Assembly: GCA_022828225.1 (NCBI GenBank)
Contig: JAJEJG010000013.1
Coordinates: forward strand, 186,001 to 250,000
Origin: Nitrospirales bacterium
Lineage (GTDB): Bacteria; Nitrospirota; Nitrospiria; Nitrospirales; UBA8639
Reading direction: 5' to 3'
Length of the DNA stretch: 64,000 nt
Shown here: positions 9,792 to 27,395 of the stretch, in pieces
Numbering within the stretch: position 1 is the first letter of the stretch
How the letters are laid out: each line of letters opens with the position of its first letter
Position numbers and translations under genes: made by a program
Notes under the pieces: generated by a model
Databases searched by the model: none
The model's input: the letters and a program-made list of their open reading frames with translations, nothing else
Told to the model about the DNA's origin: nothing

Positions 9792-11228
9792 ATGATCAAA
9801 GCGCGCACAATAACTATGTTGTCCTGCAGCGCCGTGGCATTGGTGCTCGGTTTGCCGGAACTCGGCTGGGGAACGGACGACTCGATCACTCACGTCGATC
9901 TCACCCAGTCAGCCATCGGATATTTCGCGCTGGGCATTTTTGTGCTGGCCTATGCCCTGGTCATGGCCGAGGAATTTACGCACCTCAGGAAATCCAAACC
10001 CGTCATATTGGCGGCGGGCATCATTTGGGCAATGGTGGCGTGGTCGTATCCCGGCGACGATCCGCATGCCGTCGAGCATGCGCTACGTCACAATATTCTC
10101 GAATACGCGGAATTGATGTTATTTCTGCTGGCCGCCATGACGTACATCAACGCCATGGAAGAACGGTTGGTTTTCGAAAGCCTGCGGTCCTGGTTGGTGC
10201 GCAAGGGCTTTACCTACCGTCAGTTGTTCTGGCTCACGGGAATCCTGGCGTTTTTTATTTCTCCGGTGGCGGACAACCTGACTACGGCCTTGCTGATGTG
10301 CGCGGTAGTGTTGGCTGTCGGGGCGGACAATCCCCGGTTCGTCAGTTTGGCGTGTATCAATATCGTGGTGGCGGCCAACGCGGGCGGGGCCTTCAGCCCC
10401 TTTGGCGACATCACCACGTTGATGGTGTGGCAAAAGGGGATCGTGGGCTTCTTCACGTTTTTCCTCCTGTTCGTGCCCTCGGTGGTCAACTACGTGGTGC
10501 CGGCCGCGATCATGCATTTTGCCGTACCGAAGGTTTCGCCGGTGCCGTCAGACGAAATCGTACACATGAAGCGGGGCGCCCACGTGATTATGCTGCTGTT
10601 CTTTCTCACGATCTGCACCGCCGTGAGTTTTCACAATTTCCTCCATCTTCCCCCCATGGTTGGCATGATGACCGGCCTGGCCTACCTGAAATTTTTTGGG
10701 TTTTACCTGCAGAGGACGCACAGTCGATACGCGGCACCGGGAACATGGAGTGAGAAGAAAGCTCAGGAAACGCTTGGCGACATGATCCCATTCGAAATCT
10801 ATCAGCACGTGGCAAGGGCGGAATGGGATACCCTGCTGTTTTTCTATGGTGTCGTCCTGTGTGTGGGAGGGTTGGGCTTTCTCGGCTATCTCGCGGTCGT
10901 GGCCCAAGTGATGTATATTGACTGGGGGCCCACGTTCGCGAATACGATGGTCGGGATTTTGTCCGCAATCGTGGATAACATTCCGGTGATGTTTGCCGTC
11001 CTGACGATGAATCCCGACATGTCTCTGGGCCAATGGCTCTTGGTGACCTTAACGGCCGGGGTCGGTGGGAGCATGCTGTCGATCGGATCGGCCGCCGGCG
11101 TGGCGCTCATGGGACAGGCGCGCGGCAAGTATACGTTTTTCAGTCATCTCAGATGGACCCCGGCCATTGCGCTCGGGTATGCGGCGAGCATCCTGGCCCA
11201 TATGTGGATCAATGGGAGTCAATTTTGA
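9792..11228 (+). CDS. nhaD: Na+/H+ antiporter, NhaD family
   Basis: The 478-residue product is an integral membrane protein with about a dozen hydrophobic segments. It shows NhaD family hallmarks: an N-terminal signal-like helix, PVADNLTTALLMCAV, NIVVAANAGGAFSPFGDITTLM, and IVDNIPVMFAVLTMNP. NhaD proteins export sodium in exchange for protons and work best at alkaline pH. The gene is followed by sulP and lies in the same island as the Dab pump and an NhaR-like regulator, so it may maintain the sodium gradient for bicarbonate uptake; that is inference. No Shine-Dalgarno is obvious before the ATG. Confidence 0.92.
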   Translation: MIKARTITMLSCSAVALVLGLPELGWGTDDSITHVDLTQSAIGYFALGIFVLAYALVMAEEFTHLRKSKPVILAAGIIWAMVAWSYPGDDPHAVEHALRHNILEYAELMLFLLAAMTYINAMEERLVFESLRSWLVRKGFTYRQLFWLTGILAFFISPVADNLTTALLMCAVVLAVGADNPRFVSLACINIVVAANAGGAFSPFGDITTLMVWQKGIVGFFTFFLLFVPSVVNYVVPAAIMHFAVPKVSPVPSDEIVHMKRGAHVIMLLFFLTICTAVSFHNFLHLPPMVGMMTGLAYLKFFGFYLQRTHSRYAAPGTWSEKKAQETLGDMIPFEIYQHVARAEWDTLLFFYGVVLCVGGLGFLGYLAVVAQVMYIDWGPTFANTMVGILSAIVDNIPVMFAVLTMNPDMSLGQWLLVTLTAGVGGSMLSIGSAAGVALMGQARGKYTFFSHLRWTPAIALGYAASILAHMWINGSQF

Positions 11229-11255
11229 CGTAGGCCCTGACAGGCGCAAAACCCA

Positions 11256-11285
11256 TTGCTCTCGGGGATGTATGCGGGCTACAAT
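11256..11285 (+). promoter_or_regulatory. Candidate sigma-70 promoter for sulP
   Basis: TTGCTC (11256-11261), an 18-base spacer and TACAAT (11280-11285). It lies between nhaD and the terminator hairpin in front of sulP, so a transcript starting near 11292 would have a leader of about 230 bases that contains the hairpins at 11343-11382 and 11446-11487. Confidence 0.45.
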
Positions 11286-11445
11286 TTGATAAACACCAAG
11301 GAGAGGAGGCAATTCGGATAATCGAAGAATCCGCGTGGCTATTGAGAACGTTCCGCCTGCACGCAGGCGAATGGTTCTTCTCACTGACGTGTCGGGCATG
11401 TAGGGTAGCTGGCTGTCGGCTGTCTCAGGCTGGCCACAGTGCAAG

Positions 11446-11494
11446 CCGGTTGAGCATTCAGGAACCTGCTCTCTGAATGGCAACCGGTTTTTTT
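11446..11494 (+). terminator. Intrinsic terminator (possible attenuator) in the sulP leader
   Basis: Left arm CCGGTTGAGCATTCAG (11446-11461) and right arm CTGAATGGCAACCGG (11473-11487) pair with two bulged bases, followed by seven T residues (11488-11494). It ends only 29 bases before the sulP ATG, and AGGAG lies in that gap. No separate promoter fits between terminator and gene, so the hairpin must be read through when sulP is expressed. A second hairpin (11343-11382; CGCCTG/CAGGCG core) lies upstream. Confidence 0.75.
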
Positions 11495-11523
11495 GTGTTC
11501 CAAACGGATAAAGAGGAGAAAGC

Positions 11524-13164
11524 ATGAGCGCTGAAAAAGCAGACCTGCCACGAGGAACGCTTACCGGGCTTCGGCAGCACTGGAAAGCCGACCTGCTGTC
11601 CGGATTCCTGGTGTTTCTGATTGCGCTGCCGTTGTGTCTCGGCATTGCCCTGGCCTGTGGGTATCCCGCCATTGCCGGCATCTTCACCGCCATTATCGGC
11701 GGCATCCTGGCCACGTTCTTCAGCAATTCGGAGCTCACGATCAAAGGTCCGGCCGCGGGGCTTATCGTCATCGCCATCGGCTGCGTGACCGAATTCGGGT
11801 TTACCGGCGGGAAGGATCCGGCTGCCGACTATCAAGCCTACCGGCTGGCGCTGGGCGTCGGGGTGGCTGCGGGCATCATCCAAATCCTGTTCGGAGTTTT
11901 CCGCGCCGGCATCCTCGGGGAATTTTTCCCCACGACCGCGATCCATGGGCTATTGGCCTCGATCGGGGTCATCATCATCGCCAAGCAGTTTCCGGTGGTC
12001 ATGGGACTCAGCCCCGAAGGCTCCCCCCTGCACCTGCTCGCCAACGTTCCCACGTTCATCATGAACATGAACCCCAAAATCGGTTTGATCGGGATCGTGA
12101 GCCTCCTCATCGTATTCGGATATCCGCTCATCAAATACCCTGCATTTAAAGTGATCCCGGCTCCGATGATCGTGTTGATCGTCGCGGTGCCGATGGGTCT
12201 GTACCTGAACGTCGGTCAGGAAGGCACTTACACCTTTAACGACCAGACCTATGCCTTGGGAGCAAAGTTTCTGGTGGACGTGCCGGCGAATATGTTCAGC
12301 GCGCTCGCATTTCCGGATTTCTCCGGACTCACGACGTCCATCGGCATCAGGTACGTGATCATGTTTGCCTTGATCGGGAGCGTGGAATCATTACTGAGCG
12401 CGAAGGCCATCGACCAGATCGATCCGTGGCAACGAAAGACGGACTTGGACCGGGACCTGCTGGCCGTCGGGGTCGGCAATACCGTCTCGGCCTTCGTGGG
12501 CGGGCTCCCGATGATCTCAGAAATCGTACGCAGCAAAGCCAACATCGACAACGGGGCTGAAACGCGTTTTGCCAACATGTTTCACGGCCTGTTTCTGCTG
12601 ATCTTCGTCGCCTTGATTCCCATGATGATCAACCAGATCCCTCTGGCGGCCCTGGGTGCGTTGCTGGTGTTTACGGGGTTCCGGTTGGCTTCCCCCCAGG
12701 AATTTGTCCACATGTATCATTTGGGGAAATACCAGTTCATCGTGTTCGTGTCCACGGTCATCGGCGTCCTGGCCACGGACCTCTTGATGGGCATCGGGAT
12801 CGGCATTGGAGTCAAGGTTGTTCTTCACATCATCAATGGCGCTCCGCTCCTCTCGTTTTTCAGACTGAATGCGGAGATCACCCAGGAAGACGATACCTCG
12901 GCGACTATCGTGGTCCGGGAGTCTGCCATCTTCAGCACCTGGATCCCCCTGCGCAAACACCTGAACCGGTTGTTGCAGGAAGGAAAAACCGTCACCCTGA
13001 ATCTGGCCGAGACGCAAATTGTCGATCACAGCGTCATGTCAAAACTCAACGAATGGGTCGGTGAATTCGAAGAAAGGGGATGCGACCTCTTCATCAGGGG
13101 GCTGGCACAGCACCGACCTATGTCCGATTCCGTAGTCGCGGCGCATATCAAGCCGAGGGACTAG
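11524..13164 (+). CDS. SulP family anion transporter with STAS domain, candidate bicarbonate importer
   Basis: The 546-residue product is a SulP/SLC26 transporter. About 440 residues of membrane helices include ALPLCLGIALACGYPAIAGIFTAIIGG and LTIKGPAAGLIVIAIG, followed by a C-terminal STAS domain (about 455-546, VTLNLAETQIVDHSVMSKLNEWV). SulP proteins move sulfate, bicarbonate or other anions. The position next to nhaD and near the Dab operon favours sodium-coupled bicarbonate uptake of the BicA kind, but the substrate cannot be fixed from sequence. Start is supported by AGGAG about seven bases upstream. The long structured leader with a terminator suggests control by transcription attenuation. 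Confidence 0.85.
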   Translation: MSAEKADLPRGTLTGLRQHWKADLLSGFLVFLIALPLCLGIALACGYPAIAGIFTAIIGGILATFFSNSELTIKGPAAGLIVIAIGCVTEFGFTGGKDPAADYQAYRLALGVGVAAGIIQILFGVFRAGILGEFFPTTAIHGLLASIGVIIIAKQFPVVMGLSPEGSPLHLLANVPTFIMNMNPKIGLIGIVSLLIVFGYPLIKYPAFKVIPAPMIVLIVAVPMGLYLNVGQEGTYTFNDQTYALGAKFLVDVPANMFSALAFPDFSGLTTSIGIRYVIMFALIGSVESLLSAKAIDQIDPWQRKTDLDRDLLAVGVGNTVSAFVGGLPMISEIVRSKANIDNGAETRFANMFHGLFLLIFVALIPMMINQIPLAALGALLVFTGFRLASPQEFVHMYHLGKYQFIVFVSTVIGVLATDLLMGIGIGIGVKVVLHIINGAPLLSFFRLNAEITQEDDTSATIVVRESAIFSTWIPLRKHLNRLLQEGKTVTLNLAETQIVDHSVMSKLNEWVGEFEERGCDLFIRGLAQHRPMSDSVVAAHIKPRD

Positions 13165-13379
13165 GTTGCATCGTCTTGCCCCCGCTTGATGAAGCCAATA
13201 GGCGTCGTATTCTTGCCGACATTCCTCTATCAGACGGTTTAGTGGGTTTAGTGCGATTTCGCTCATTTGAGCGCGTGCGTTTTTGCTGATTGCCGCAGCA
13301 CGATTAGACGATCTACCCATTCAACTTTATAACCCATTGATTTTCAAATGGTTTCATGCAACCGGTTTCCAAGGGAAAC

Positions 13380-13395
13380 TGGCATATCCTTTGCT
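13380..13395 (+). promoter_or_regulatory. Sigma-54 (-24/-12) promoter
   Basis: TGGCATATCCTTTGCT matches the consensus TGGCAC-N5-TTGC with the exact ten-base spacing between the invariant GG and GC. Transcription would start near 13406, leaving a 30-base leader with GGAGG before the small ORF at 13436. An imperfect dyad, GGTT-TCATGC-AACC, lies about 20 bases upstream and could be part of an activator site. Confidence 0.7.
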
Positions 13396-13435
13396 TTTAA
13401 AAAGATAGTGTCTGATTAAACCTTTGGAGGAAATC

Positions 13436-13591
13436 ATGAGTGAATTTTCCATCTTGTACAAAAGCCTACATTGTGAGCAGAAACGAACGAAGAAAATCGA
13501 AAAAAACGACGCCTCTTCACAAGTTAAGAGTGGGGCCAAGTCGGGATCAATCTTCAGCCCCTTTCGGGCGTTGATAGCCAAAATTTTCTAA
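13436..13591 (+). CDS. Small basic protein of unknown function behind a sigma-54 promoter
   Basis: A 51-residue ORF from ATG 13436 to TAA 13589-13591. It has a strong Shine-Dalgarno (TTGGAGG, five bases before the ATG), a sigma-54 promoter upstream and a T-tailed hairpin downstream (13702-13727). The product is hydrophilic and lysine-rich in the middle (EQKRTKKIEKND), with an aromatic, more hydrophobic tail (SIFSPFRALIAKIF). There is no signal peptide and no family is recognised. The full set of expression signals makes it likely to be real. The NtrC-type regulator at 5531-6925 could be its activator, but no evidence ties them beyond proximity. Confidence 0.65.
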   Translation: MSEFSILYKSLHCEQKRTKKIEKNDASSQVKSGAKSGSIFSPFRALIAKIF

Positions 13592-13615
13592 TCCGGTCGT
13601 TTCTCTCCCCTTGCT

Positions 13616-13645
13616 GTCATCCCCGACCTGATCGGGGATCCAGCG
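13616..13645. repeat. Short palindromic intergenic repeat
   Basis: ATCCCCGA-CCTGA-TCGGGGAT within GTCAT...CCAGCG. This unit resembles the widespread class of palindromic intergenic repeats of the form ATCCCCG...CGGGGAT-CCAG. Only one copy was noticed in this window. Confidence 0.45.
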
Positions 13646-13701
13646 TCTTTACTTGCCCTTTTCTGTCGGGCTTACCGCTTGTCCTCGCCTTCTTTTATGA
13701 A

Positions 13702-13727
13702 GGACCTGAATCCAGGTCCAGCATTTT
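13702..13727 (+). terminator. Probable intrinsic terminator after the small ORF
   Basis: GGACCTG (13702-13708) pairs with CAGGTCC (13713-13719), followed after four bases by TTTTT. It lies about 110 bases after the small ORF stop, beyond the palindromic repeat. Confidence 0.5.
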
Positions 13728-13938
13728 TCCCTTTTGTAGTTAGTTAAACACCAGAGTTGAAAAGGCTTCTTGGCCAAGAGATCGGAATGGATTCTCCCGC
13801 CTCAACGTGCCGTCCAGTAAAAATCGGCAGGTAGCGGACTCTTCTTGACCTCTCCGGGGATCGCTTATACCATGGCGACTCATTAAGGCCCGCTCTAGAG
13901 TTTGCAGAGTCGTTACCAAGTGGAAAGCTCTATCTTCC

Positions 13939-14310
13939 ATGAAGAACGGACTAACGAAAGGCGAGACTGAGACGGCTATCCGCAATGCCGTCATCAAATT
14001 CGAACAGGAATTCATGGGACGCGGGCCCACGGAGGTCAAGGCGTTCATCCTGCGCGACATGGTCCTGGTACGGCTCAAGGGCGTTCTGACTCCGGCCGAA
14101 CGGCAACTTGCCAAGAACGCCGAAGGCGTGGACATGGTCAAACGCATGAGGCAGAACCTCATCTCCCAAGGACGGGAACGCCTCTGCGGCCAGATTTCCA
14201 CCATCACCGGAGTCGAAGTCACGGGCCTCTTCACCGACATCGAAACGCACAGCGGCGAGCGGATGATCGTCTTCACCCTCGAAAACGACCTCGACAATAT
14301 GGTTCGCTGA
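13939..14310 (+). CDS. DUF2294 family protein
   Basis: A soluble 123-residue protein that fits DUF2294: FMGRGPTEVKAFILRDMVLVRLKGVLTPAERQLA, then a central VKRMRQNLISQGRERL helix and TGVEVTGLFTDIETHSGERMIVFTLE. The family is widespread and its biochemical role is not established. It sits between the sulP and dab regions, so a role in ion or inorganic-carbon handling can be proposed but is not shown. A weak promoter (TTGACC-N17-TACCAT) ends near 13880. No clear ribosome binding site is seen before the ATG. Confidence 0.75.
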   Translation: MKNGLTKGETETAIRNAVIKFEQEFMGRGPTEVKAFILRDMVLVRLKGVLTPAERQLAKNAEGVDMVKRMRQNLISQGRERLCGQISTITGVEVTGLFTDIETHSGERMIVFTLENDLDNMVR

Positions 14311-14447
14311 CGTCGAACGTGACCGTGGTCATTCTGAGCAGGAGGAAGGATTTCGCCAACCTTCCTCCTGCCAGGAATTCCGTATTTAACATGAAACAGA
14401 TTTTGTGGTGTGATACGCTCTGTTCGACATGCTGGGAGAGACCCACC

Positions 14448-14534
14448 ATGAAAAAATGGACCACCACGAAACTCACCACAACGCTTCAACACGGGAAAGC
14501 CCGTACTTTCGGGTTTCGCTCGCCCAGGAGGTAG
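14448..14534 (+). CDS. Possible 28-residue basic peptide
   Basis: ATG at 14448 with GGGAGAG nine bases upstream and TAG at 14532-14534. The peptide is threonine-, lysine- and arginine-rich (MKKWTTTKLTTTLQHGKAR). It ends three bases before the next ATG, and its last codons contain the next gene's Shine-Dalgarno (AGGAGG), so it could be a translationally coupled leader. The evidence is thin. Confidence 0.3.
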   Translation: MKKWTTTKLTTTLQHGKARTFGFRSPRR

Positions 14535-14537
14535 CGT

Positions 14538-14837
14538 ATGGACCATGAACCGGGACCCGCTCGCCCTCGTCAAACGTATAGTCCCAGTGACATTGCCAAA
14601 ATCTGGGAGCGCGGCAAGCCCCTCACAAGCCAATGGTCCAGTAAAAGGGATATCAAGGATCCCGGCGAGTGGCGACGCGATTTCTTTGGCTATCCGATCC
14701 GCTTTGGAGCCTATGGTGATCGTGACTCTTTGCATGGCTGGGAGATTGCGCCGCTGGTCATCCGGTCGCGTGACGGCACGAAGGCCACAACCCTCTTACG
14801 GCCGTTGCATTGGCTGTCGATCCTCAAACTGACCTAA
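14538..14837 (+). CDS. Small HNH-like protein with the catalytic motif missing
   Basis: A 99-residue product starting at the ATG at 14538, with AGGAGG about six bases upstream. The middle (WRRDFFGYPIRFGAYGDRDS, then HGWEI) and the end (LLRPLHWLSILKL) resemble a family of short HNH-endonuclease-like proteins with the plan GWEIDH...NL.PLHW.NN..K. Here the Asp-His pair that should follow GWEI is replaced (GWEIAPLVI), and the closing asparagines are also absent, so nuclease activity is not expected. The similarity is from memory of the pattern and needs a profile search. Confidence 0.5.
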   Translation: MDHEPGPARPRQTYSPSDIAKIWERGKPLTSQWSSKRDIKDPGEWRRDFFGYPIRFGAYGDRDSLHGWEIAPLVIRSRDGTKATTLLRPLHWLSILKLT

Positions 14838-15068
14838 GGAAGAGGGCCCAACGTCACCAGTTGCCTGGATCGCGTCTGCCATTGGGGAAATGATTTGATC
14901 GCTCCTTCGCCACCGCGTGAGCCTTACCGCCTTGATCTCCTATATCCGGATGGTCCACGGCTTGGTGGTTTCGCTCGCGGGTTCTCCCGGCCGAATTGAT
15001 TGTTGTTTCAACTATCTTTCCTCCATGTCTGGCTCAATGCATAAGGCCCCTCCAGCCCAGGGTTAAGA

Positions 15069-16001
15069 CTATCGGCCGGCGCCAAATGCGCCGACAAACC
15101 GGTCATGCTCGAAAATGCCGCCGACTTCTTCATGATTCGGGCCGTAGAACTGGCCTTGAATAGAATCTCCCTCGCTGTCCGTCTCGAAAGTTCCGTTCGT
15201 CACGGCCAAGCCGCCCCACATCATGTCTGCCCGTGATTGCCCTGTGCCCGCGTCACGGATATTGGTAAAGGCCACATCCATCGCCATTTGAGCCATATCA
15301 AGCGTCAACGTCGCATCCCCTCGAACAAGACTCCTATCGGATCCAACGGAACCCCCAACCATGCCGCCCCTCCAGGTGGCATTGCCGGACAGGGCCGGGT
15401 TCGTGCCCGTGGCATTTCCGATTGAGTACGCATACCCCGCCTCTAGGCCGGCCACGTCGCCGCCGTCACTCGTATCGTGCGTGACTCCTTCAAGCTGGAC
15501 AGCAAAAAAATTGTGATCCAACCAGCCGCCCAACAACGTCACGTCCACGGAAATCCCCGGTTCTGTCAGTTCTCCGCCACCTTCGGCAATGGAGACGCCT
15601 TGCTGCACGGCGATCCGTTGCCAGTCAATGTTGGGATCAAGGGCATCCAAATCGGATACGGACACACGTACATGTTCCACCCCGTTATACGACGCCGTAC
15701 ATGAATCTGTCGCACATGACGTGTTAAAGCGAAACGGCATCATTTGTCCGCCAACGGCAACGCTGGTCAAGACGTCACTGGCCAATATTGAATCGGCCGA
15801 CCCGGCAATTTGTGAGATGGTCGCTTGAACGTTATCGACCATGGGAGGAGCGTCCACCACCATAGCGGAACCACTGCCCCCCCCACCGCAACCAGCCAGC
15901 AGACCCGCCATAATGATGCACGCGACAACGTGACGTTTTAAACCATGAGGGGGGCCCACAGAACGCACGACATTTGGAACCACAGAGGTTAAGGTTTTCA
16001 T
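15069..16001 (-). CDS. Lipoprotein with TbpB-like beta-barrel domain and a duplicated leader
   Basis: A 310-residue product from the ATG at 16001, preceded by AGGAGG. The first 18 residues (MKTLTSVVPNVVRSVGPP) match the signal-peptide start of the two small secreted proteins at 16316 and 24304. A second, complete lipoprotein signal follows (LKRHVVACIIMAGLLAGC, then a glycine-rich linker). The C-terminal part has the TbpB/Slam-type barrel pattern, ending IQGQFYGPNHEEVGG and FVGAFGAGR, as in transferrin-binding-like solute-binding lipoproteins. The gene therefore looks like a lipoprotein gene that acquired the promoter, ribosome binding site and first codons of the secreted-protein family. Its ligand is unknown. 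Confidence 0.7.
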   Translation of the reverse strand: MKTLTSVVPNVVRSVGPPHGLKRHVVACIIMAGLLAGCGGGGSGSAMVVDAPPMVDNVQATISQIAGSADSILASDVLTSVAVGGQMMPFRFNTSCATDSCTASYNGVEHVRVSVSDLDALDPNIDWQRIAVQQGVSIAEGGGELTEPGISVDVTLLGGWLDHNFFAVQLEGVTHDTSDGGDVAGLEAGYAYSIGNATGTNPALSGNATWRGGMVGGSVGSDRSLVRGDATLTLDMAQMAMDVAFTNIRDAGTGQSRADMMWGGLAVTNGTFETDSEGDSIQGQFYGPNHEEVGGIFEHDRFVGAFGAGR

Positions 16002-16095
16002 GGCGTCCTCCTTTCTGGTTCTTTGTTTATCAGCTCTTAATTTCATTAACGGCCAGAAAATTGAATTTGACAAATAAATACTTTTCACCTTATCA

Positions 16096-16114
16096 ATCTA
16101 CATTTTGGATGTAT
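16096..16114. promoter_or_regulatory. LysR-type operator/promoter, copy 1
   Basis: ATCTACATTTTGGATGTAT contains the inverted repeat TACAT-N5-ATGTA. It lies in an AT-rich divergent region that also has GACAAATAAATA, shared with copies at 16773-16791 and 24754-24772. It separates the lipoprotein gene (minus) from a regulator remnant (plus), the arrangement typical of a LysR regulator and its target. Confidence 0.55.
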
Positions 16115-16120
16115 AATTGC

Positions 16121-16225
16121 ATGGCCGTAGACCGGCTCAACGACCATCATGTGTTCAATATTCCGGTTGCTGACCGGGAAGGATGCATTAGGCGAGCGCG
16201 TGACGTGCTGCGGATTGTCCCATAA
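16121..16225 (+). pseudogene. Remnant of an NhaR-like LysR regulator gene
   Basis: The 34-codon frame MAVDRLNDHHVFNIPVADRE...ARDVLRIVP aligns with the N-terminus of the intact regulator at 24784 (MDWLNYHHLLYFWVIARE...AREVLSLSQ). Its last bases (GGATTGTCCCATAAA) match a region about 70 codons further on in the intact gene, so an internal deletion joined the two parts. It ends at the same point as the second remnant (23961-24198) and is followed by the same hairpin. Confidence 0.65.
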
Positions 16226-16227
16226 AA

Positions 16228-16266
16228 GGAGAGGGAGACCGGGACGTAGTCCCGGTCTCCCTCTCC
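16228..16266 (-). terminator. Perfect 18-bp hairpin, terminator of the small secreted-protein gene
   Basis: GGAGAGGGAGACCGGGAC (16228-16245), loop GTA, and its exact complement (16249-16266). On the minus strand it is followed by TTTTATG, so it should terminate the gene at 16316-16678. A near-identical copy is at 24204-24240 in the same position relative to the paralogous gene. Confidence 0.75.
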
Positions 16267-16315
16267 TGCCTGCCAGCCGAACGTGTTTCTATGACGTCGG
16301 TTGGTTTTCTGATTG

Positions 16316-16678
16316 TCACTCGCTTTTTTTCAGTTGGGCCATTTGCTCTTCATGCCAGGACACGTGTTCCTGAAGGCCCTGTAACTCTCCTCGCCACTTC
16401 CCAAGGACTCTTGTCCAACTCTGGCGTTTAAATCCTTTGGGATCACGGTAGGAGTTCTTGACCATGTCCAGCCGGTGTTCCAATTGTTGGATTTTTTGTG
16501 CAAGCACGGCCGCTTTGTCCTGGTGTTGCTGAATGGCTGCCTCGTGAAATTCGACGGATTGCATCATGGCCTCTCCTGCGAAGGGTTCGCTGGAAACGGT
16601 TCCTTTCGCAGCAAATCCGGGTAGGGTGAGTCCCACACAGAGTACGATGCTTGGAATCACAGCGGTTAAGGTTTTCAT
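16316..16678 (-). CDS. Small secreted coiled-coil protein, paralogue 1
   Basis: A 120-residue product from the ATG at 16678, preceded by AGGAGG. A signal peptide (MKTLTAVIPSIVLCVGLTLP, cut near GFAAKG) leads to a helical, glutamine- and lysine-rich mature part with heptad-like spacing (AVLAQKIQQLEHRLDMVKNS) and a tryptophan-containing end (RVLGKWRGELQGLQEHVSWHEEQM). The paralogue at 24304 is about as long and clearly similar throughout. Both sit opposite a LysR-type gene or remnant across an AT-rich promoter, which suggests control by that regulator. No known family was recognised. The longer frame up to 16774 runs through the promoter and was rejected. Confidence 0.75.
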   Translation of the reverse strand: MKTLTAVIPSIVLCVGLTLPGFAAKGTVSSEPFAGEAMMQSVEFHEAAIQQHQDKAAVLAQKIQQLEHRLDMVKNSYRDPKGFKRQSWTRVLGKWRGELQGLQEHVSWHEEQMAQLKKSE

Positions 16679-16772
16679 GTCGTCCTCCTTTCTTGTTCTT
16701 TGTTCATCAACTCTTATTTTATTAAATAACCATAAAAGGTCATCTAACAAATAAATAATATTAGGCATAACC

Positions 16773-16791
16773 ATCTATATTTTAGATGAAT
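16773..16791. promoter_or_regulatory. LysR-type operator/promoter, copy 2
   Basis: ATCTATATTTTAGATGAAT contains the inverted repeat ATCTA-N5-TAGAT. The upstream stretch TCTAACAAATAAATAATATT (16743-16762) is also found at 24723-24742. It faces the small secreted-protein gene; no regulator start codon follows on the plus side. Confidence 0.55.
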
Positions 16792-17125
16792 AACTGCGGG
16801 CTGACTGCAAGCAGCCTTAGGGTATTGGAAGTGTTACACGTCGATGTTCAAGGCGAAATTGTTTTGCGGGGAGGGATCAGAGCGAAGAGCCTGAAAGAAG
16901 CTGGTTCTTTCAGTAAGGAGGACAAGAATCGCGTGCCAAGTCAGGTTCCCACGAAACAGGCATCATCGGGCGGGAAGGGCATCTTGGGATAAGGAGCGTT
17001 TCCTGCGACGTTGGATTATTCTTGCACGGAACCAACCGATACGGCGAAAAGGCGTCAGGCGTATCGAAGCAATCGCCTAGCAGTCGGCAGTGCGGGAAAG
17101 TCATACTCGGAAATTTAGCCCGGCC
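16792..17125. other. Region without a supported gene
   Basis: About 330 bases between operator copy 2 and the end of the dab operon. A 68-codon frame (16786-16992) starts inside the operator, has no ribosome binding site and no recognised homologue. In the other modules a regulator gene follows the operator here, so this may be where a copy was replaced when the dab segment arrived or was rearranged. Confidence 0.4.
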
Positions 17126-17461: not shown

Positions 17462-17490
17462 GGTCGTCTAGTCCTCCTCAACCTGTTGGA

Positions 17491-20736: not shown

Positions 20737-20747
20737 GGTCGCTCTTC

Positions 20748-21992
20748 CTAATTGATCAATATACTAAAACTTGCGCCGAAAATGATCAGGACCAGGGAGC
20801 AGATTTCGGCAACCCTCAAATCGGTATAGGGGATGTCCGATCGTGCTTTTCCAAAGAGTGTGTGGTGCAGCACATGTGAGAAATGCCAACTGCCAAACAT
20901 CCAGACACCGACAAACAACAACGAAATGATGACTAAAGAGCCCCCCTGGTTTTCCGTTGCCGGCATGGTCGTAATGCCGCCGAAGATGGGAATGATCGGA
21001 AGCAGGACGGCGATGCTGATCAAAAGACCCACTAACGTCCCGAGACGCGGCATGGGAGACGCCAGCCCGGGGAGATTGCCGATGGTGGGCGACCCATACC
21101 GTTGTTGGACAAAGGCATAGGCGACAAACAGTCCGTTCATCACCAGCCCGACCGTGATCCCGAACGGGATTCCCCATTCCGAAAAAGAGGAGAAGACGGT
21201 GGTCAGTCCCCACAAAAGCGTAACATGGACAATGGTGGCATAGGTGAGCAAAACATGGATCTGGTTTTGCCCCAAACACTTGAGAGACGCGTACAGCCCG
21301 CCCAGTAAGGCCAGGAATGCGATGGCCACGTGTATTTCCGTTACCATGGGAATCACAGTTTGCAGGTTGTGGATTTCAGCCAATCCGAGGGCTAAGAACG
21401 CCACCGTCCATACCCCGGAAAGCATTCCTCGCGCGGAGCCGACCAGGGAGGTGAAGAGAACGTGAAATGGCGGCAGTGGCACGAGCGTAACCGCAAGAAA
21501 AAGGCCGGCTGATCCGTCAAAGGAGTCCCCACCCCAGAAGAAAACGCTGCTGAGAACAATGGCAATAGCCGCCTGCGCAAGGCCAATGGTTTTGCGTGTG
21601 GCGGAAAGTTTCGAGCGGTAGAGAGAAAAGGCGGCAAAAGCGAACAAGCCGATGAGAAAATACCTGTTGACGGGTGCGGGGCCGCACAGTGCGGCAAGAC
21701 ACAGTCCCAACACCACCAGGGGTTCGTCCAGAGGCGTTGAAGAACGTTTGGAATCCCATTGTCCGAGGACGACACAAAACGTCGAAAAGATGACGGCCGC
21801 TGACAGATAAGTCGCGATTCGAGCGGTTTCGAATGCGGCGTACACGTAGAGGATCGTTCCGGCTTCCCACCCGATGCACAGCATGGCCAAAACCTGAAAG
21901 ATCGAATGCGAAATGCGGCCGGTGCGGTTGAGCAACCAGAGAACAAGGGGGATGAGAACGGCCAGCAACGTTATGGAAAATTCTGAAGCCAT
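20748..21992 (-). CDS. Second antiporter-like membrane protein of the dab operon
   Basis: A 414-residue integral membrane protein with about 12 hydrophobic segments, encoded between dabB and dabA. Short stretches (PLPPFHVLFTSLVG; GMLSGVWTVAFLALGLAEIHNL; IHVLLTYATIVHVTLLWGL) recall a worn NuoM/NuoN-type antiporter fold, but the conserved lysine and glutamate of the active families are not evident. The start at 21992 follows GAGGAAGG and avoids overlap with dabB; a frame from 22061 overlaps it. Some characterised dab loci carry an extra, short antiporter-like gene reported as dispensable, so it may be accessory. Its function here is unknown. Confidence 0.75.
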   Translation of the reverse strand: MASEFSITLLAVLIPLVLWLLNRTGRISHSIFQVLAMLCIGWEAGTILYVYAAFETARIATYLSAAVIFSTFCVVLGQWDSKRSSTPLDEPLVVLGLCLAALCGPAPVNRYFLIGLFAFAAFSLYRSKLSATRKTIGLAQAAIAIVLSSVFFWGGDSFDGSAGLFLAVTLVPLPPFHVLFTSLVGSARGMLSGVWTVAFLALGLAEIHNLQTVIPMVTEIHVAIAFLALLGGLYASLKCLGQNQIHVLLTYATIVHVTLLWGLTTVFSSFSEWGIPFGITVGLVMNGLFVAYAFVQQRYGSPTIGNLPGLASPMPRLGTLVGLLISIAVLLPIIPIFGGITTMPATENQGGSLVIISLLFVGVWMFGSWHFSHVLHHTLFGKARSDIPYTDLRVAEICSLVLIIFGASFSILIN

Positions 21993-22009
21993 TGCGGATC
22001 GACCTTCCT

Positions 22010-23710
22010 CTAATACCGGTGTCCGAATTTTTGCGCCAAGTGGAAGAGCGCGTTGCTCCACCTTACGTAGATCAGATCGACGTACAACCGGTTGATCAGA
22101 AGAATATAGAGGCGTTGTTGCAATGCAAGAATCCTATCCGGGTTGATAATCGTGTGTCCTTTCGCATCGGTATAGACGTAGAACCAGCCGAAGAGAATAC
22201 AAATGGTGGCGAGCAGGATGATTGTATCGAACACCGCAGGATTGAAAGCCGCGGCCACGAAGAATTCGTCTGCCACACCCGGTTCGGGATACAGAAAGTG
22301 CGTGAATTGTTCGCCTGCCCAGAGGTACGTGAACCCAATGAGAAACAACGTGCCGACCATGGCACCGGACACCTTCCAGGAAGCTACGTCATGCAGTCGA
22401 GATAAGCTGAAAATGGCTTGGGAGGCGGTGACCCAACTGAAAAAGAGGAAAATGACTGCGCCATGTGCGTCTTGCAGCGGAACTTCCAACAGGCCGTGTG
22501 CGACCATCAAAATAAACAGTGGCATGAGTAAGGTAATGGTCAATCCCGTTACCCAGCTTGCCTGGGTGGGAAGCCTGACGGGTTTGTGAGTTAACGAAGA
22601 AGGGAATTTCGGTTCATGTCTGGCACTGTGAATCACGGTCCCGGCGCTTAAGAAGAGTGAGGCTTTAAACAGGCCGTGCGCAATCAGATGAAAAATGGCC
22701 AGGGCAAAAGCCCCGAGGCCGCATTCCATGATCATATAACCCATTTGTCCCATCGTGGAAAATCCCAGTGTTTTCTTGATGTCGTTTTGGACGAGCATCA
22801 TCGAGGCCCCCAAAAGGACGGTGGCGGCGCCGACAATGAACACGATATGCAGGACGTCGGGTGAGAGCGCATACAACGGTGCGAGTCGATTAAGAAGGAA
22901 TCCTCCCGCGTTGACAATACCAGCATGCATGAGCGCCGAAACCGGGGTTGGAGAGTCCATGGTATCCGGCAACCAGACGTGGAGAGGGAACTGGGCCGAT
23001 TTGGCCATGGCTCCGATGAAAATGAGCAATGCAATGACGGACGGTGCCGTGACGTCGAGCATATGTCCGGGCAGCAGTGAAATCACGTGGACTTGTTCGG
23101 AGGCTCGCCGGAAGAGCTCGGCAAATTCGAGCGTGCCGAAATAGTGATACGTCAGGACAAGGCCGCAGAGGAACGCGACGTCTCCGACCCGGTGCACAAT
23201 GAACGTTTTGAACGCGTTCTGATAGGCCGGCACGTGTGAAAAATTAAACGCAAGAATCAGGTACAGGGCCCAACTCAACAACTGCCAGAAGACAAACAGC
23301 ATCAGGAGGTTCGGACTGGAAACGAGCGCGAGGATGACAAAGGTTATGAAGCCGAGTAACGCGAAGAATCGGGCATAGCCGGAATCACCTCGGAGATAAC
23401 GAACGGAAAACACGTGAATCACGGTGCTGACGCCGGTGATCAGGACCATCATCACGGCCGTGAGCCGGTCAACCAACATGCCGAACGTGAAAAACGAGGA
23501 ACCATCGTCCTGGAGCGGCCAGAGGGTCACCCGAAAAGGCTCGCCCGAGCTGACGGAGTACAACGTGACAATGGAGAGGATGCCGGCTCCCACTGTGGCA
23601 CTGATTCCTATGGTTGCCACGTACGGGGCGAAGCGTTTCCCGAGCACACTGATCAATAAACCGGCGACGAACGGAAGGAGGGGAATAAGGATTGCTGTCG
23701 TCGTCATCAC
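22010..23710 (-). CDS. dabB: DabB, NuoL-like cation channel subunit of the inorganic-carbon pump
   Basis: A 566-residue membrane protein of the proton-conducting (PF00361) family related to NuoL/MrpA. It has the central channel motifs AMAKSAQFPLHVWLPDTMDSPTPVSALMHAGIVNAGG and LVQNDIKKTLGFSTMGQMGYM, plus GLFKASLFLSAGTVIHS. DabB docks DabA to the membrane and supplies the cation flow. It is the first gene of the four-gene operon. GTG at 23710 or ATG at 23707 may be the start; AAGGGAG lies a few bases upstream. Whether H+ or Na+ is used cannot be read from the sequence, but the neighbouring nhaD makes sodium worth testing. Confidence 0.93.
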   Translation of the reverse strand: MMTTTAILIPLLPFVAGLLISVLGKRFAPYVATIGISATVGAGILSIVTLYSVSSGEPFRVTLWPLQDDGSSFFTFGMLVDRLTAVMMVLITGVSTVIHVFSVRYLRGDSGYARFFALLGFITFVILALVSSPNLLMLFVFWQLLSWALYLILAFNFSHVPAYQNAFKTFIVHRVGDVAFLCGLVLTYHYFGTLEFAELFRRASEQVHVISLLPGHMLDVTAPSVIALLIFIGAMAKSAQFPLHVWLPDTMDSPTPVSALMHAGIVNAGGFLLNRLAPLYALSPDVLHIVFIVGAATVLLGASMMLVQNDIKKTLGFSTMGQMGYMIMECGLGAFALAIFHLIAHGLFKASLFLSAGTVIHSARHEPKFPSSLTHKPVRLPTQASWVTGLTITLLMPLFILMVAHGLLEVPLQDAHGAVIFLFFSWVTASQAIFSLSRLHDVASWKVSGAMVGTLFLIGFTYLWAGEQFTHFLYPEPGVADEFFVAAAFNPAVFDTIILLATICILFGWFYVYTDAKGHTIINPDRILALQQRLYILLINRLYVDLIYVRWSNALFHLAQKFGHRY

Positions 23711-23960
23711 GTGCTCCCTTCCAAACGGACGAGGCTGACGCTCATGAAGGTCTCTACCTATGAAAATCGGGCAGTTCGGTCACACGACTCTTCGGACTGC
23801 TGTCCGTGTCAGACAAGGGGGAAGCTGACGTACGGTCATAGGATTCGTCTTCTTTTTTACTCAAGTGGAAGCGTGTTCTTCAAGGGGTACTTGTAATAGC
23901 CTGGATATCTTACATAGCCGAATTAGTGGTTCATTATTGATCCATCCATTAGGCGGGTCT

Positions 23961-24198
23961 GTCAAGTGCCGGCGTCGTCGCAGCCCGCGCAGAATGTCCA
24001 ATTGCGCGTGCCTGAAGACGCGAGGGGTGAGAAATTGTCTGCTTGCGTGAGCCGCAGGCTGATACTGATAGGCGTCGGAAAAGTGGTCTGGCGTTATGCG
24101 AATGAAATCTTTTGTTTGCAGAGAATTATCCGGCACGTTGAAAGGTCATGGGACCCAACGCCCCATGCGTCTGGTCGCCGGTCGCGGAATTGCCCCAT
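23961..24198 (+). pseudogene. Second remnant of the NhaR-like regulator gene
   Basis: About 80 codons align at DNA level with 24860-25100 of the intact regulator: GTCGCAGCCCGCGC; CTTGAAGACGCG versus CCTGAAGACGCG; GTGGTCTGGCGTTATGCG versus GTGGTCTACCGTTACGCG; CACGTTGAAAGGT; CAACGCCCCAT. The first 25 codons are missing, several frameshifts are present, and the copy ends at the same base pair as the other remnant. Traces of the operator (TTGATCCATCCATT, 23937-23950) remain upstream. A 91-codon frame on the other strand is only its shadow. Confidence 0.75.
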
Positions 24199-24203
24199 AA
24201 AGA

Positions 24204-24240
24204 GAGAGGGAGACCGGAACGTAGTCCCGGTCTCCCTCTC
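24204..24240 (-). terminator. Hairpin terminator, copy 2
   Basis: GAGAGGGAGACCGGAAC (24204-24220), loop GTA, and GTCCCGGTCTCCCTCTC (24224-24240); one mismatch in a 17-bp stem. It follows the small secreted-protein gene on the minus strand exactly as copy 1 does at 16228-16266. Confidence 0.75.
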
Positions 24241-24303
24241 ATCCAGCCAGCCGAACATGTTTCTATGACGTCGGTTGGGCTTCTGATCGCCCCCTCGCTT
24301 TTT

Positions 24304-24660
24304 TCACGTTTTCAACTGAGCAAGTTGTTCTTCATGCCAGACAATGCGTTGCTGGATATCCCTTAATTCCCCGCGCCACGTCGCAACCATTCTTTTCCAA
24401 CTGGCGCGTCGAAAGCCTTTGGGATCCCGGTAGGAGTTCTTCAACATGTCCAGCCGGTTTTCCAATTGTTGGATTCTCTGTTCAAGCATGGCCGCTGTGT
24501 CCTGGTGTTGCTGAACGGCTGTCTTGTGAAATTCGACGGATTGCACCGTGGCCTCTTCCGCGAAAGGTCCGCCGGGAACGGGGCCATCCGCAGCAAATGC
24601 GGGTAGAGTCAGTCCCACACACAGCACGAATGTTGGTAGCATAGCGGTTAAGGTTTTCAT
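24304..24660 (-). CDS. Small secreted coiled-coil protein, paralogue 2
   Basis: A 118-residue protein with signal peptide MKTLTAMLPTFVLCVGLTLP (cut near AFAADG) and a helical mature part (TAAMLEQRIQQLENRLDMLK, then NSYRDPKGFRRASWKRMVATW and IVWHEEQLAQL). It is a clear paralogue of the product of 16316-16678, sharing YRDPKGF, the WRGEL block and WHEEQ. AGGAGG precedes the ATG. It is divergently placed from the intact NhaR-like gene with the LysR-type box between them, so it is the best candidate for direct regulation by that protein. No family was recognised; a periplasmic stress or binding role is only a guess. Confidence 0.75.
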   Translation of the reverse strand: MKTLTAMLPTFVLCVGLTLPAFAADGPVPGGPFAEEATVQSVEFHKTAVQQHQDTAAMLEQRIQQLENRLDMLKNSYRDPKGFRRASWKRMVATWRGELRDIQQRIVWHEEQLAQLKT

Positions 24661-24753
24661 GTCGTCCTCCTTTTGGTTTTCTGTTCACTACCTGTTACTC
24701 TATAGAATAACCATAAAAATGAATCTAACAAATAAATAATATTGAATTGATTC

Positions 24754-24772
24754 ATCTATTTATTAAATGTAT
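24754..24772. promoter_or_regulatory. LysR-type operator/promoter, copy 3 (functional context)
   Basis: ATCTATTTATTAAATGTAT lies 12 bases before the start of the intact NhaR-like gene and in front of the divergent small secreted-protein gene. It aligns with copies at 16096 and 16773. This is the only copy still next to an intact regulator, so it is the likeliest working operator. Confidence 0.6.
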
Positions 24773-24783
24773 GCTATGGAGTC

Positions 24784-25683
24784 ATGGACTGGCTCAACTA
24801 CCATCATCTGCTCTATTTCTGGGTGATTGCCCGGGAAGGGTCCATTAAGAATGCCCGGGAAGTGCTGTCGTTGTCGCAGCCCGCGCTGAGTGCTCAATTA
24901 CGCGCGCTTGAAGACGCGATAGGGGAAAAACTATTTTCTCGGGTTGGCCGCAAACTGGTTCTGACGGACGTGGGAAAGGTGGTCTACCGTTACGCGGAAG
25001 AAATTTTTTCGCTGGGCAGAGAATTAACCAGCACGTTGAAAGGTTACGGAACCCAACGCCCCATTCGGCTGGTGGTCGGCATCGCGGAAGCCGTCCCCAA
25101 AATGGTGGCCTATAAACTGCTGAAGGTTGCGTGCAAACAGTTCGAGCACATCCAAATCGTGTGCTGGGAAGGTCGCTTGGAGCGGTTGTTGGGGGAACTC
25201 GCTCTTCATGCACTGGACATTGTCTTGACGAACACTCCCGTCCCGCCCAGCGTCAGTATCGAAGCCCATACCCAGTTGCTTGGGCAATCGGGAGTGACGC
25301 TCTTCGGACCCGAACACCTGGCCCCTCACTATCAACGGAACTTTCCACGGTCATTGGACGGGGCGCCGTTTCTGTTGCCGACGCCCAATTCGACACTCAG
25401 ACGGGGCTTGGATGATTGGTTTCGAAAACACGGCATAGAGCCTTTCGTCGTCGGCGAGTTTGAAGATGGGGCCACGATGCAAGCATTCGCCCAGGAAGGG
25501 CACGGGCTGTTTCCCGGCTCTTCGGTTGTTGAGTCGGAAATAGCTCGGCAAAATCAGGTCCGAAAAGTGGGACTAATTACGGGTCTCAGCGAAAGCTTCT
25601 ATGGTATTACGGTTGAACGCCGTTTAAAGCATCCGGCTGTGTTGGCGATTTCCGAGGCCGCGAAAGAAAGAGTCTTCAGGTAA
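24784..25683 (+). CDS. LysR-family regulator, NhaR-like
   Basis: The 299-residue product has the LysR plan. The N-terminal helix-turn-helix (MDWLNYHHLLYFWVIAREGS; LSLSQPALSAQLRALEDAIG) strongly resembles NhaR, including VVYRYAEEIFSL. A C-terminal effector-binding domain follows (about 90-299). NhaR of enteric bacteria senses sodium and activates an Na+/H+ antiporter gene. Here the gene is divergent from a small secreted-protein gene and lies between the dab operon and a broken second dabA, so it may control carbon-uptake or sodium-related genes. Two decayed partial copies of this gene lie at 16121 and 23961. Confidence 0.88.
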   Translation: MDWLNYHHLLYFWVIAREGSIKNAREVLSLSQPALSAQLRALEDAIGEKLFSRVGRKLVLTDVGKVVYRYAEEIFSLGRELTSTLKGYGTQRPIRLVVGIAEAVPKMVAYKLLKVACKQFEHIQIVCWEGRLERLLGELALHALDIVLTNTPVPPSVSIEAHTQLLGQSGVTLFGPEHLAPHYQRNFPRSLDGAPFLLPTPNSTLRRGLDDWFRKHGIEPFVVGEFEDGATMQAFAQEGHGLFPGSSVVESEIARQNQVRKVGLITGLSESFYGITVERRLKHPAVLAISEAAKERVFR

Positions 25684-25770
25684 TCGTCTCGCCGTCGTAC
25701 GAATTGCAGTTGTTCGGAGCCTCTGGTTGGCTTTTTTTTCTGTTCTCTCCAAGCAGGTTCAAGCCGCGTC

Positions 25771-27335
25771 ATGAGCCCCATCTCGATACAAGCGCTCTCC
25801 CCAGAAGAACGGGAGAAGGTCCGGGAGACGGTCGCCCAAGCCAGCGAACCGACCCCACCGTTTTGGCCCATGCAGGTCATGGTGGCCCAAAATCCCATGC
25901 ACGGTTTGGAATATCTCTCCTTTGACGAAGCCGTTCGCAAAGGCAAACACCTGCTGGGCGGTAACGGGTACCTGGCCAATGAAGAGTACCGGGAGTTCTA
26001 TCGAGCGGGACGCATCACCGCCGGCAATCTCAAGCGGGCCCTGGCGCGCGTGGGTCCGCGATCGGAACAGATCCGGGCGGTCACGGTCGGGGGCCGCGAA
26101 ATCACGGCCGAGGAGGTGTGGCGGTTGCACGTGGTGTATGGGTTCGAGGCATTGGAGCCTGCCCTATTGGAATGGGAACTGAGCGGTGATGGTGCCAAGA
26201 AGCGATTCAGACAGGACCTGCCGGACGAATCCGCACAACGGATCATCGAACGCACGATCCGGGAATGCGAGCATTGCCGGGATCACCCCGAGGAAGCCTA
26301 TCTGACGAATCTGTGGAAAACCGTGTTGGCGGCATTGGGGCTCTCCGGTGCACGGCCAGGCGAGCAGGACGCATCACATGTCCCTAGCGATGTGGCCTTG
26401 CCGGCCCAGCGCACCGTCAGCGATTGGGTGGATGTCCTTGCCGGCACGACGCTTGTCGAGGAGATCAATAACCAGCTCATCAAATGGTTGGCGGCGTTTG
26501 TCGATGAAGGCTTGGCCGGCTGGGAAATGCCGGGTAGATACGGGGGATTCTATGCAGCCTGGCGGGATTTGGCGCAACACGATCAGTCCCACCGGTTTGA
26601 AGGCATTCGACAATTCCAACAAAAAATCAGCGAACTGCCGTCTGAGCCCGAGGATGCGATTGCGTCGAGCCTGCATCGTCTGGGCGTGCCCGAGGCGAGT
26701 TGGAGCGATTACCTCGCCCGCCAGTTGTCCCAATTGCCGGGGTGGCCCCGGTTCATTCGCTGGCTGGAGACGAATCCCGCGTACCATGCGCAACGCAAAC
26801 ATCCGGTCGATGCGGTCCAGTATCTGGCGGTGCGGTTGTTCTACGAAGCCGAATTGGCGCAGGCGACCTGCCGGCGGGAATGGAGGACTCACGGTACCGT
26901 GCCGGCGCTGGTTGCCTATTGGCAAGAGCGTTCGGATGAATACGCAAAAAGGATGAGTGGGGGCGCACATGCCGTGGACCCCCTAAAACGGGCCATTTGC
27001 CGTGATGCCTGGCGGCTGTTTCATCTCGCTCAGGTGTTGGAAATGTCGCCGCTCGAGATGCTCGATCTATCTTCGGACGATGCGCGCACGGTGTTGGGAT
27101 GGCTGGATGCCTTTCCTCCGGACCAACACGGTCCGGTGTGGCTTGAGGCCTACGAAGACTTCTTTCGAGCCGACATTATCAAAAGACTTACGACGCACTG
27201 AGGCATCGTGTTCAAAAGCACGCGATCCTCCAGCAACTCTTCCATAACCAATGGCTCAATCTGGTGGCCATCGATCCTTACACCTTGAAGTTTCATCGCT
27301 ATCTTCCCGACGCCGCCTGGGAACGGGTCGGATAA
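25771..27335 (+). pseudogene. dabA: Second dabA gene, broken by an internal deletion
   Basis: Positions 25771-27201 encode 476 residues matching the N-terminal part of DabA (TPPFWPMQVMVAQNPMHGLE; GGNGYLANEEYREFYRAGRI; NNQLIKWLAAFVDEGLAGWE) up to HGPVWLEAYEDFF, which corresponds to about residue 460 of the intact DabA at 17491. After the stop, another frame (about 27192-27335) encodes the family C-terminus (LFHNQWLNLVAIDPYTLKF, aligning with LVGNQWINLVALDPVTMEF). The central 500 or so residues with all four zinc-site residues are gone. The N-terminal frame is still open, so a truncated protein could be made, but it cannot be a working DabA. No dabB accompanies it. Confidence 0.88.
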
Positions 27336-27395
27336 GACACCTTCTTCGTGACATGGAACTCCCACCCTCCGGGAGAGTCCGGCGTGAGGGAACAT

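Follow-up and report, generated by a model that had tools for sequence, protein, structure and literature searches.

Probable replacement of an Mrp-linked inorganic-carbon system by a DAB2-like system at a locus of a Nitrospirales bacterium

Described systems and the present locus

Inorganic-carbon pumps of the DAB type occur in several described operon forms. The DAB2 system of Halothiobacillus neapolitanus (9rd0) is proton-driven; according to its description (PMC13144422), changing the finger Glu of DabA to Ala or Gln left no activity, the system did not depend on sodium, and, unlike MpsAB, it failed to rescue a sodium-transporter mutant. The accessible text of the COGNAT survey of YbcC (COG3002) operons (PMC5700660) already describes DabA with NuoL, with a divergent LysR gene, with a 3′ PII gene, or with SulP plus NuoM. 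The locus considered here lies in a stretch of 64,000 nucleotides from a Nitrospirales bacterium (positions 186,001-250,000 of the source contig; the whole stretch is referred to as the window). It has an intact DAB operon, dab-L, and the remnant of a second dabA gene, dabA-S, close to genes for the antiporter NhaD, a SulP transporter, MpsC and a LysR regulator. The locus is probably the product of a replacement, in which an Mrp-linked inorganic-carbon machine gave way to a DAB2-like one, and the ‘island’ of sodium and carbon genes seen in the initial annotation would be the scar of that replacement.

The loci of this family share with YbcC operon classes A, B and C the divergent LysR gene, the 3′ PII gene and a dabA that precedes nuoL, accompanied by SulP and NuoM. 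They differ in their small Mrp subunits, in a class of DabA with a finger Asp and in the replacement of one class by the other, none of which is mentioned in the accessible text of that survey. In Nitrospira, clusters of antiporters with SulP-type HCO3− carriers are already published (PMC7784846; PMC8115632, as far as their available text goes): Ca. N. alkalitolerans has Mrp, NuoL/M, BicA and NhaB in one region, for which a sodium-driven HCO3− model was given (PMC7784846), and N. marina has SulP-NhaB pairs (PMC8115632). The Ca. N. alkalitolerans locus resembles those of two genomes of the present set, G020 and G021, where NuoL-like and NuoM-like genes come after an Mrp set, with SulP and NhaB close by (c20 and c33 of these genomes being judged NhaB-like and MotB-like by eye), but DabA is unnamed in the portion of text available, while in G020 and G021 it heads the operon. 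A DUF2309-NuoL operon is described, in the available part of the source, for Leptospirillum (PMC9080137). MpsABC of Staphylococcus aureus has DabA/DabB homologues and an MpsC-family gene in common with the present loci; in these, MpsC stands apart as a gene of its own beside dabA-S, often in divergent orientation. No description of DabA within an Mrp operon, of two residue classes or of their exchange was found in a literature search that left most subscription journals outside its range.

Genomes compared

The source genome of the window has a size of 2.36 Mb and is 99.97% complete. The comparison set consists of 14 genomes of the genus (G000-G013, G000 being that of the window), 11 further ones from the same family (G014-G024) and additional ones from the order. 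The region maps cover 34 regions from G000-G024, with G022 left unmapped. The DabA tree was used only for the grouping of G006 with G001, which the identities measured along the locus bear out independently, and one row (G026, in a wrong reading frame and probably antisense) was removed from the later alignment. The closest named records to the LysR protein are metagenome-assembled genomes labelled Nitrospira sp. or Nitrospirales, with 88-91% identity, and these presumably come from marine sponges, to judge by their sample names.

The insertion and the fossils of the deleted operon

Relative to G005 and G010, dab-L is a 7.4-kb insertion between direct repeats of about 0.55 kb. G005 has an uninterrupted run of genes for an SlamLp-like protein, a small secreted protein, LysR and dabA-S. 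Window positions 15049-16759 match G005 9443-11149 (83%), while positions 24192-25713 match G005 10600-12122 (87%). Since both segments match an overlapping stretch of G005, about 0.55 kb is present twice in the window with dab-L in between. G010 has the same pre-insertion order as G005, with one segment that matches both sides of the window dab-L. The left copy of the flanking repeat (16209-16759; repeats D1, D8 and D9) carries a small secreted-protein gene at 16316-16774 on the minus strand, and the right copy (24189-24743) carries a second one at 24304-24660, also on the minus strand; the G005 segment matches both copies. Next to the left copy, at 15955-16210, is an extra copy of the LysR promoter/leader and the first ~27 LysR codons (direct repeats D2 and D4-D6). 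At the other end of dab-L, a LysR remnant that is divergent from DabB occupies 23945-24181 on the plus strand (repeats D3 and D7). It is 77% identical to the G005 LysR and collinear with the intact LysR of G001, which also diverges from DabB. The exported-protein genes at 15069-16088, 16316-16774 and 24304-24660 resemble one another in leader and promoter (triplicate repeat D4/D5, 74-83% identity), and the first of them weakly resembles Slam-dependent lipoproteins.

The N-terminal remnant of dabA-S is located at 25771-27201 on the plus strand and covers positions 1-275 of the 747 in PF10070. It ends in a TGA that is common to the window, G003 and G006, while the deletion past this TGA in the window differs from that in G003 and G006. 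A 3′ scrap of dabA-S follows the internal deletion (27211-27337, plus strand; 92% over 127 bp to G005), and G012 also retains such a scrap (L077). The next gene (27473-29017, plus strand) encodes, from its Pfam match, an HtrA-like protease, which in G002 and G005 lies between dabA-S and mrpE. Beyond it, at 29046-29154 on the plus strand, is a fossil of mrpB from the deleted DabA-S/Mrp operon (PF04039, 24.5 bits against a cut-off of 22.5). This fossil of 109 bp is 87% identical to the mrpB of G010 (E 2e-34) and gives way within 3 bp to sequence located after nuoM in both G005 and G010. Since it is present, the window genome must once have had the DabA-S/Mrp operon. The same junction is found in G001 and in G003, which departs again about 20 bp further on, while G006 has a different deletion within its Mrp genes. 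The second dabA had initially been annotated as broken. The remnant is real, but it is better read as the relic of a dabA-S that headed Mrp genes; the LysR fragment at 23945-24181, the duplicated flank and the mrpB fossil had not been listed.

Distribution of the two systems in the genus

Among the 14 genomes of the genus, dab-L is present in eight (G000, G001, G003, G006, G008, G011, G012 and G013) and a stop-free dabA-S in six (G002, G004, G005, G007, G009 and G010), and dab-L and dabA-S with Mrp genes are mutually exclusive. Full-length MnhB (PF04039) is found in 6/6 dabA-S genomes and in 0/8 dab-L genomes, with a 35-residue scrap kept in G000 and G003. No MNHE (PF01899) match was obtained in G000, G001, G003, G007, G008, G011, G012 and G013, and that in G006 is partial. 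In the rpoB tree, seven of the dab-L genomes form one clade (99/93). The DabA-L of G006 groups with that of G001 (100/100), unlike its rpoB. The identity of G006 to G000/G001 is 91-99% across the dab-L block (comparison windows 11501-17500) and 79-93% in the other windows; the dabA-S remnant is an exception, with 96-98% to G000. A reading of this pattern is that the G006 blocks may have been transferred laterally and Mrp then lost independently. Since the seven dab-L genomes form one rpoB clade and G006 falls elsewhere, the distribution would represent at least one and probably two independent exchanges, rather than fourteen independent points.

Several observations weigh against a replacement. 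Apart from G009 and G010, the genus genomes are fragmented into many contigs; dab-L of G003 is broken across contig ends and nuoL of G008 is read in two frames. G007, a dabA-S genome with short contigs, has no MNHE match even though its MnhB was found, and the rpoB tree does not resolve G004, G005, G006 and G010. Six genomes of other genera (G014, G016, G020, G021, G023 and G024) hold both types. The dabA-S remnant keeps an open frame with a ratio of nonsynonymous to synonymous rates (dN/dS) below 1, so it may not be dead.

Since six of the 11 family members outside the genus hold both types, the genus ancestor might have had the two DAB systems side by side, with each species keeping one or the other. 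In three of these genomes, G014 (L054), G016 (L058) and G024 (L068-L069), dabA-S and mrpE enclose a dab-L operon in antisense orientation, so that one DAB operon is split by another. Such differential loss is nevertheless rather unlikely. The position of dab-L differs in the window, where it lies between the secreted-protein gene and LysR; the order in G005 and G010 is uninterrupted, as opposed to the split, repeated segment of the window; and the dab-L block in G006 has a low divergence.

The open frame of the remnant bears on another alternative, that truncated dabA-S is maintained as an independent N-terminal domain of DabA with a modulating effect on LysR or on the other DAB. The same stop is found in three species, with open frames of 449-513 codons, and dN/dS in the second half is 0.29-0.40 (P of 0.005-0.012 under the neutral expectation, with Nei-Gojobori sites), compared with 0.15-0.23 for intact genes in that part. 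These values derive from only 22-33 substitutions per pair, with dates confounded by interspecies recombination and transition bias unmodelled; from dN/dS by halves, the first half diverged earlier or via recombination. In G006 an extra base near the start shortens the frame, and in G001, G011, G012 and G013 the N-terminal part is gone, which makes a maintained domain very improbable.

For replacement, the preferred reading, a course of events can be proposed. The ancestor would have had NhaD, SulP, MpsC, the LysR gene and an operon of dabA-S, Mrp (E, F, G, B′, B, C, D), nuoL and nuoM. Recombination would then have brought in a dab-L unit of 7.4 kb, together with a divergent LysR of its own, at the point between LysR and the gene for the small secreted protein, with direct repeats left behind. 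Next, a stop codon would have arisen in dabA-S, along with deletions, and the Mrp genes would have been lost by deletion.

The intact dab-L operon

The intact operon extends over 16.8-23.7 kb of the window on the minus strand and encodes DabA, a NuoL-like protein, a NuoM-like protein and a PII-like protein. It had been annotated as complete and with a PII-like gene, as it is, but it has two antiporter-like membrane subunits, not one. Profile matches and the residue alignment identify DabB (22010-23710, minus strand) as NuoL-like, with Gln replacing the Glu of transmembrane helix 5 (TM5). The third subunit (20748-22061, minus strand) is a degenerate NuoM-like protein (PF00361, 23.5 bits against a cut-off of 21.5), in which, on a loose alignment, neither Glu nor Lys is found at the TM5/TM7 sites; its predicted structure is of poor confidence, with a mean pLDDT of 42.6. 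DabA (17491-20736, minus strand; PF10070, 892 bits) is of the long type and, in the alignment to 9rd0, has the zinc and Asp-Arg residues; it also has a finger Glu. The PII-like protein (17126-17461, minus strand; PF00543) has 5d4n and 5d4l as its sole solved relatives (E 3.5e-31 to 5d4n), which we take to be the bicarbonate-responsive CPII protein of Thiomonas.

In the mapped genomes the long type has the order DabB(NuoL-like)-NuoM-like-DabA, with the PII-like gene at the 3′ side. A LysR gene adjoins dab-L divergently in G001, G013 and G023. In G008 (L044), G011 (L050) and G012 (L051), genes judged by eye to be HlyD-like, TolC-like and ABC-membrane-like are inserted between DabB and LysR. DabA homologues with less than 60% identity are carried by 123 plasmid records.

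Coupling residues define two classes

The zinc ligands (Cys351, His524 and Cys539) and Asp353-Arg355 are present in all 35 non-remnant DabA rows, that of the window included. The finger carboxylate, on the other hand, is Glu in 19/19 L-side rows and Asp in 16/16 S rows, and further S loci for which the finger was printed likewise have Asp. The finger Glu of the window DabA-L is 99 residues past the Cys (93 in DabA2); its equivalence to Glu444 of DAB2 is by this spacing, as the 9rd0 alignments skip the finger. The NuoL-like partners fall into the same two classes. In the L class, Gln takes the place of the TM5 Glu and Arg is kept (13/13), while in the S class the TM5 Glu is kept and Ala or Ser takes the place of Arg (13/13); the neighbouring Asp of the S class is kept in 11 of the 13 rows and is Ser in G017 and G018. 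The window NuoL-L keeps K, D and R, including the Lys229/Asp178 pair, and has Gln at Glu144. On these alignments, both classes break the Arg175/Glu144 pair, from opposite sides.

The zinc, Asp-Arg and finger residues of DabA-L and the TM5 change in DabB match the DAB2 criteria given in the available text (PMC13144422). DAB2 and the window system have in common the Cys/Asp-Arg/His/Cys site and finger Glu of DabA, and a NuoL-like DabB without the TM5 Glu but with the Lys/Asp pair. The window system is unlike DAB2 in its third, NuoM-like subunit, its PII-like gene, its TM5 Gln where DAB2 has Ile, and about 94 extra DabA residues between the finger and the His. The present DAB is most likely DAB2-like, in which case proton flow through DabB would activate the zinc-dependent hydration of CO2 in DabA, and HCO3− would be trapped for carbon fixation, which in Nitrospira proceeds by the reductive tricarboxylic acid cycle. 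The PII-like protein probably gates DAB.

The dabA-S/Mrp operon in relatives

In relatives, the dabA-S operon has the Mrp subunits B, C, D, E, F and G, as found with Pfam and NCBIfam on G009. In this genome dabA-S is followed by nine genes, for MrpE, F, G, a DUF4040/MbhD-E protein, MrpB, C, D, a NuoL-like and a NuoM-like protein, with MrpC and MrpD assigned by their best NCBIfam matches, which are under the cut-offs. The operon of G009 has no canonical MrpA; its A-subunit is NuoL-like (TIGR01974, 474 bits) and the DUF4040 gene is separate. Its order, E-F-G-B′-B-C-D-L-M, is unlike the A-B-C-D-E-G of family f7 (G167). In 17 genomes (G009, G015, G017, G018, G019, G020, G021, G023, G262, G271, G333, G376, G185, G030, G402, G403 and G404), dabA-S and mrpE are on the same strand and about 0.7 kb or less apart. 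In G010 (L048, 8396-13200), a single contig, dabA-S with HtrA is about 260 kb away from the Mrp operon. Mrp operons free of DabA also occur in the class (4/4 fetched loci of family f7), and in G027 (L208) NuoL and NuoM-like genes come directly after a DabA with finger Asp and the small Mrp subunits are absent, so that this locus is a reduced version of the S class. Outside Nitrospirales, where 43 DabA loci were submitted and 42 genomes searched, 23 with a match, MrpE was found in 0/22 flanks of DabA loci (the flanks being about 1.5 kb, some of them cut by contig ends).

A tentative proposal, for which the chances are put somewhat below even, is that DabA-S and the entire Mrp-type antiporter form one membrane complex in this family. 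Such a complex would work as a vectorial carbonic anhydrase: the proton released when CO2 is hydrated would be carried off by sodium/proton exchange, and this would drive the accumulation of HCO3−. It would represent a distinct coupling class, with the finger Asp and with a NuoL partner that keeps the TM5 Glu and has lost the Arg, and in the lineage of the window a proton-driven DAB would have taken its place on more than one occasion. The proposal concerns the relatives; the window holds only fossils.

NhaD, SulP, MpsC and the LysR regulator

NhaD, a Na+/H+ antiporter, is encoded at 9792-11228 on the plus strand (NF038006, 642 bits against a cut-off of 80; TIGR00775, 444.6 bits, under its cut-off of 577.1), the SulP anion transporter at 11524-13164 (plus strand; PF00916) and MpsC, the former DUF2294, at 13939-14310 (plus strand; PF10057, 1e-37). 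Profile matches place these genes, the dab operon with its PII-like gene, the NhaR-like regulator and the broken dabA where the initial annotation had them. The gene order in close relatives is conserved, not scattered, except in G010. NhaD adjoins SulP in 13/13 testable genomes of the genus and in G014, and dabA is at most 6 kb from SulP in 12/13, contig ends making G007 untestable for the former and G008 for the latter. In G010, the exception, NhaD-SulP, dabA and the LysR-Mrp operon are at three separate places of a single contig. The clustering of NhaD, SulP and dabA is not due to chance. MpsC is present in 9/14 genus genomes and is frequently the divergent neighbour of dabA-S in relatives; in G007, NhaD is tandemly duplicated (L043, 430-3430).

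The cluster could be a loose neighbourhood, in which NhaD goes with a kinase/NtrC/haem-protein group and SulP-MpsC with DAB, the groups being functionally unlinked. In G019, NhaD shares a contig with the kinase/NtrC genes and the window-type SulP is found with DAB on a different contig, and G010 has NhaD-SulP apart from DAB, but the constant adjacency of NhaD and SulP argues against this arrangement, which is a minor possibility.

The window SulP belongs to the same family as BicA (PDB 6ki1, 72 bits), but it has the motif SxESLLS, with Glu/Ser at the aligned site where BicA carries Asp/Thr. The Asp/Thr pair at this TM8 site presumably has a role in Na+ binding. Glu/Ser is found in all 15 SulP orthologue rows printed by the motif search, in which the rows of G004 and G010 were not resolved, and the window protein is below the NCBIfam BicA cut-off (121.8 bits against 880). 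Since Glu/Ser replaces Asp/Thr, Na+ symport by the window SulP is not indicated. SulP proteins of a second clade, c11, have Asp/Thr in 5/6 rows, the remaining row not being read, and would be better BicA candidates. In G017 and G019, of other genera, the c11 SulP is near NhaD, which favours some NhaD-SulP link.

The intact LysR (24784-25683, plus strand) is NhaR-like by sequence, with 214.3 bits against the NhaR model, just under the NCBIfam cut-off of 219. DAB or Mrp genes are beside LysR in 12/15 loci with at least 66% identity and in 1/65 with 50-58%; NhaD occurs in 2/80 LysR loci, both within the genus, NhaA not having been searched for. Since the DAB/Mrp neighbours are practically confined to the loci with at least 66% identity, its role with DAB looks local to this lineage. 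The name NhaR is no evidence of sodium sensing, and the regulator goes with DAB/Mrp genes. The block upstream of LysR is alignable within the genus, and no clean operator in common with the DabB promoter was found there.

The question of sodium coupling

The initial annotation had joined NhaD, SulP, MpsC, DAB and LysR into one unit, in which SulP and/or DAB would run on the sodium gradient made by NhaD, with an NhaR-like switch in control. The conserved gene order, the MpsC neighbours and the BicA-like c11 SulP near NhaD in G017 and G019 are consistent with such a unit, as are the antiporter-SulP clusters of N. alkalitolerans and N. marina, so far as published accounts of them are available, and the argument, in the accessible part of PMC13144422, that MpsAB is sodium-linked. 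The window SulP without the BicA Asp/Thr, the DAB2-type residues, the missed NhaR cut-off and the remoteness of NhaD-SulP from both dabA and the LysR-Mrp operon in G010 make it unlikely. Clustering by itself was rejected as proof of sodium coupling, which the SulP site and the DAB residues do not indicate, and the parts of the cluster are separate in G019 and G010.

Since the SulP has no BicA pair, the LysR is associated with DAB and DAB2 is proton-driven, direct sodium coupling in the window is weakly indicated and would fit the lost DabA-Mrp machine better. Of the sodium-carbon island, the conserved neighbourhood stands and the direct sodium coupling is doubtful: the intact DAB, which had been tied to sodium, bears the hallmarks of proton-driven DAB2, and the more sodium-like DabA-S/Mrp system is the one that has been deleted. 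In the replacement proposed here, NhaD would pay for the Na+ balance, and SulP would be an anion carrier with unproven ion coupling.

Other features of the window

At 36922-47875 there is a second cluster of the complex I type, which includes a NuoG-like gene, NuoL and three genes like NuoM/N, and which resembles the Nitrospira Nuo form with duplicated NuoM (PMC7784846). A bacterial voltage-gated cation channel (51086-51892; PF00520), which matches Na and Ca channels of solved structure strongly, has a filter-like TLEDWTD and may provide a route of ion entry. The genes at 51908-57813, for a histidine-specific methyltransferase, a class V aminotransferase, an FGE-sulfatase protein and a fused OpuAC/permease transporter, look, from their Pfam matches, like ergothioneine-type synthesis and uptake.

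Biological implications

Whether DAB-type pumps are driven by protons or by sodium is disputed in print, with DAB2 on one side and MpsAB on the other. The present locus offers a paired comparison: closely related nitrifiers exchange, at one locus, two DAB classes that differ in their coupling residues and of which one is tied to Mrp, and this exchange makes the ion question directly testable. It also suggests that the Mrp-linked operon of the family is a carbon pump and not solely a salt pump, and that a ‘sodium island’ can partly be the leftover of a replaced system.

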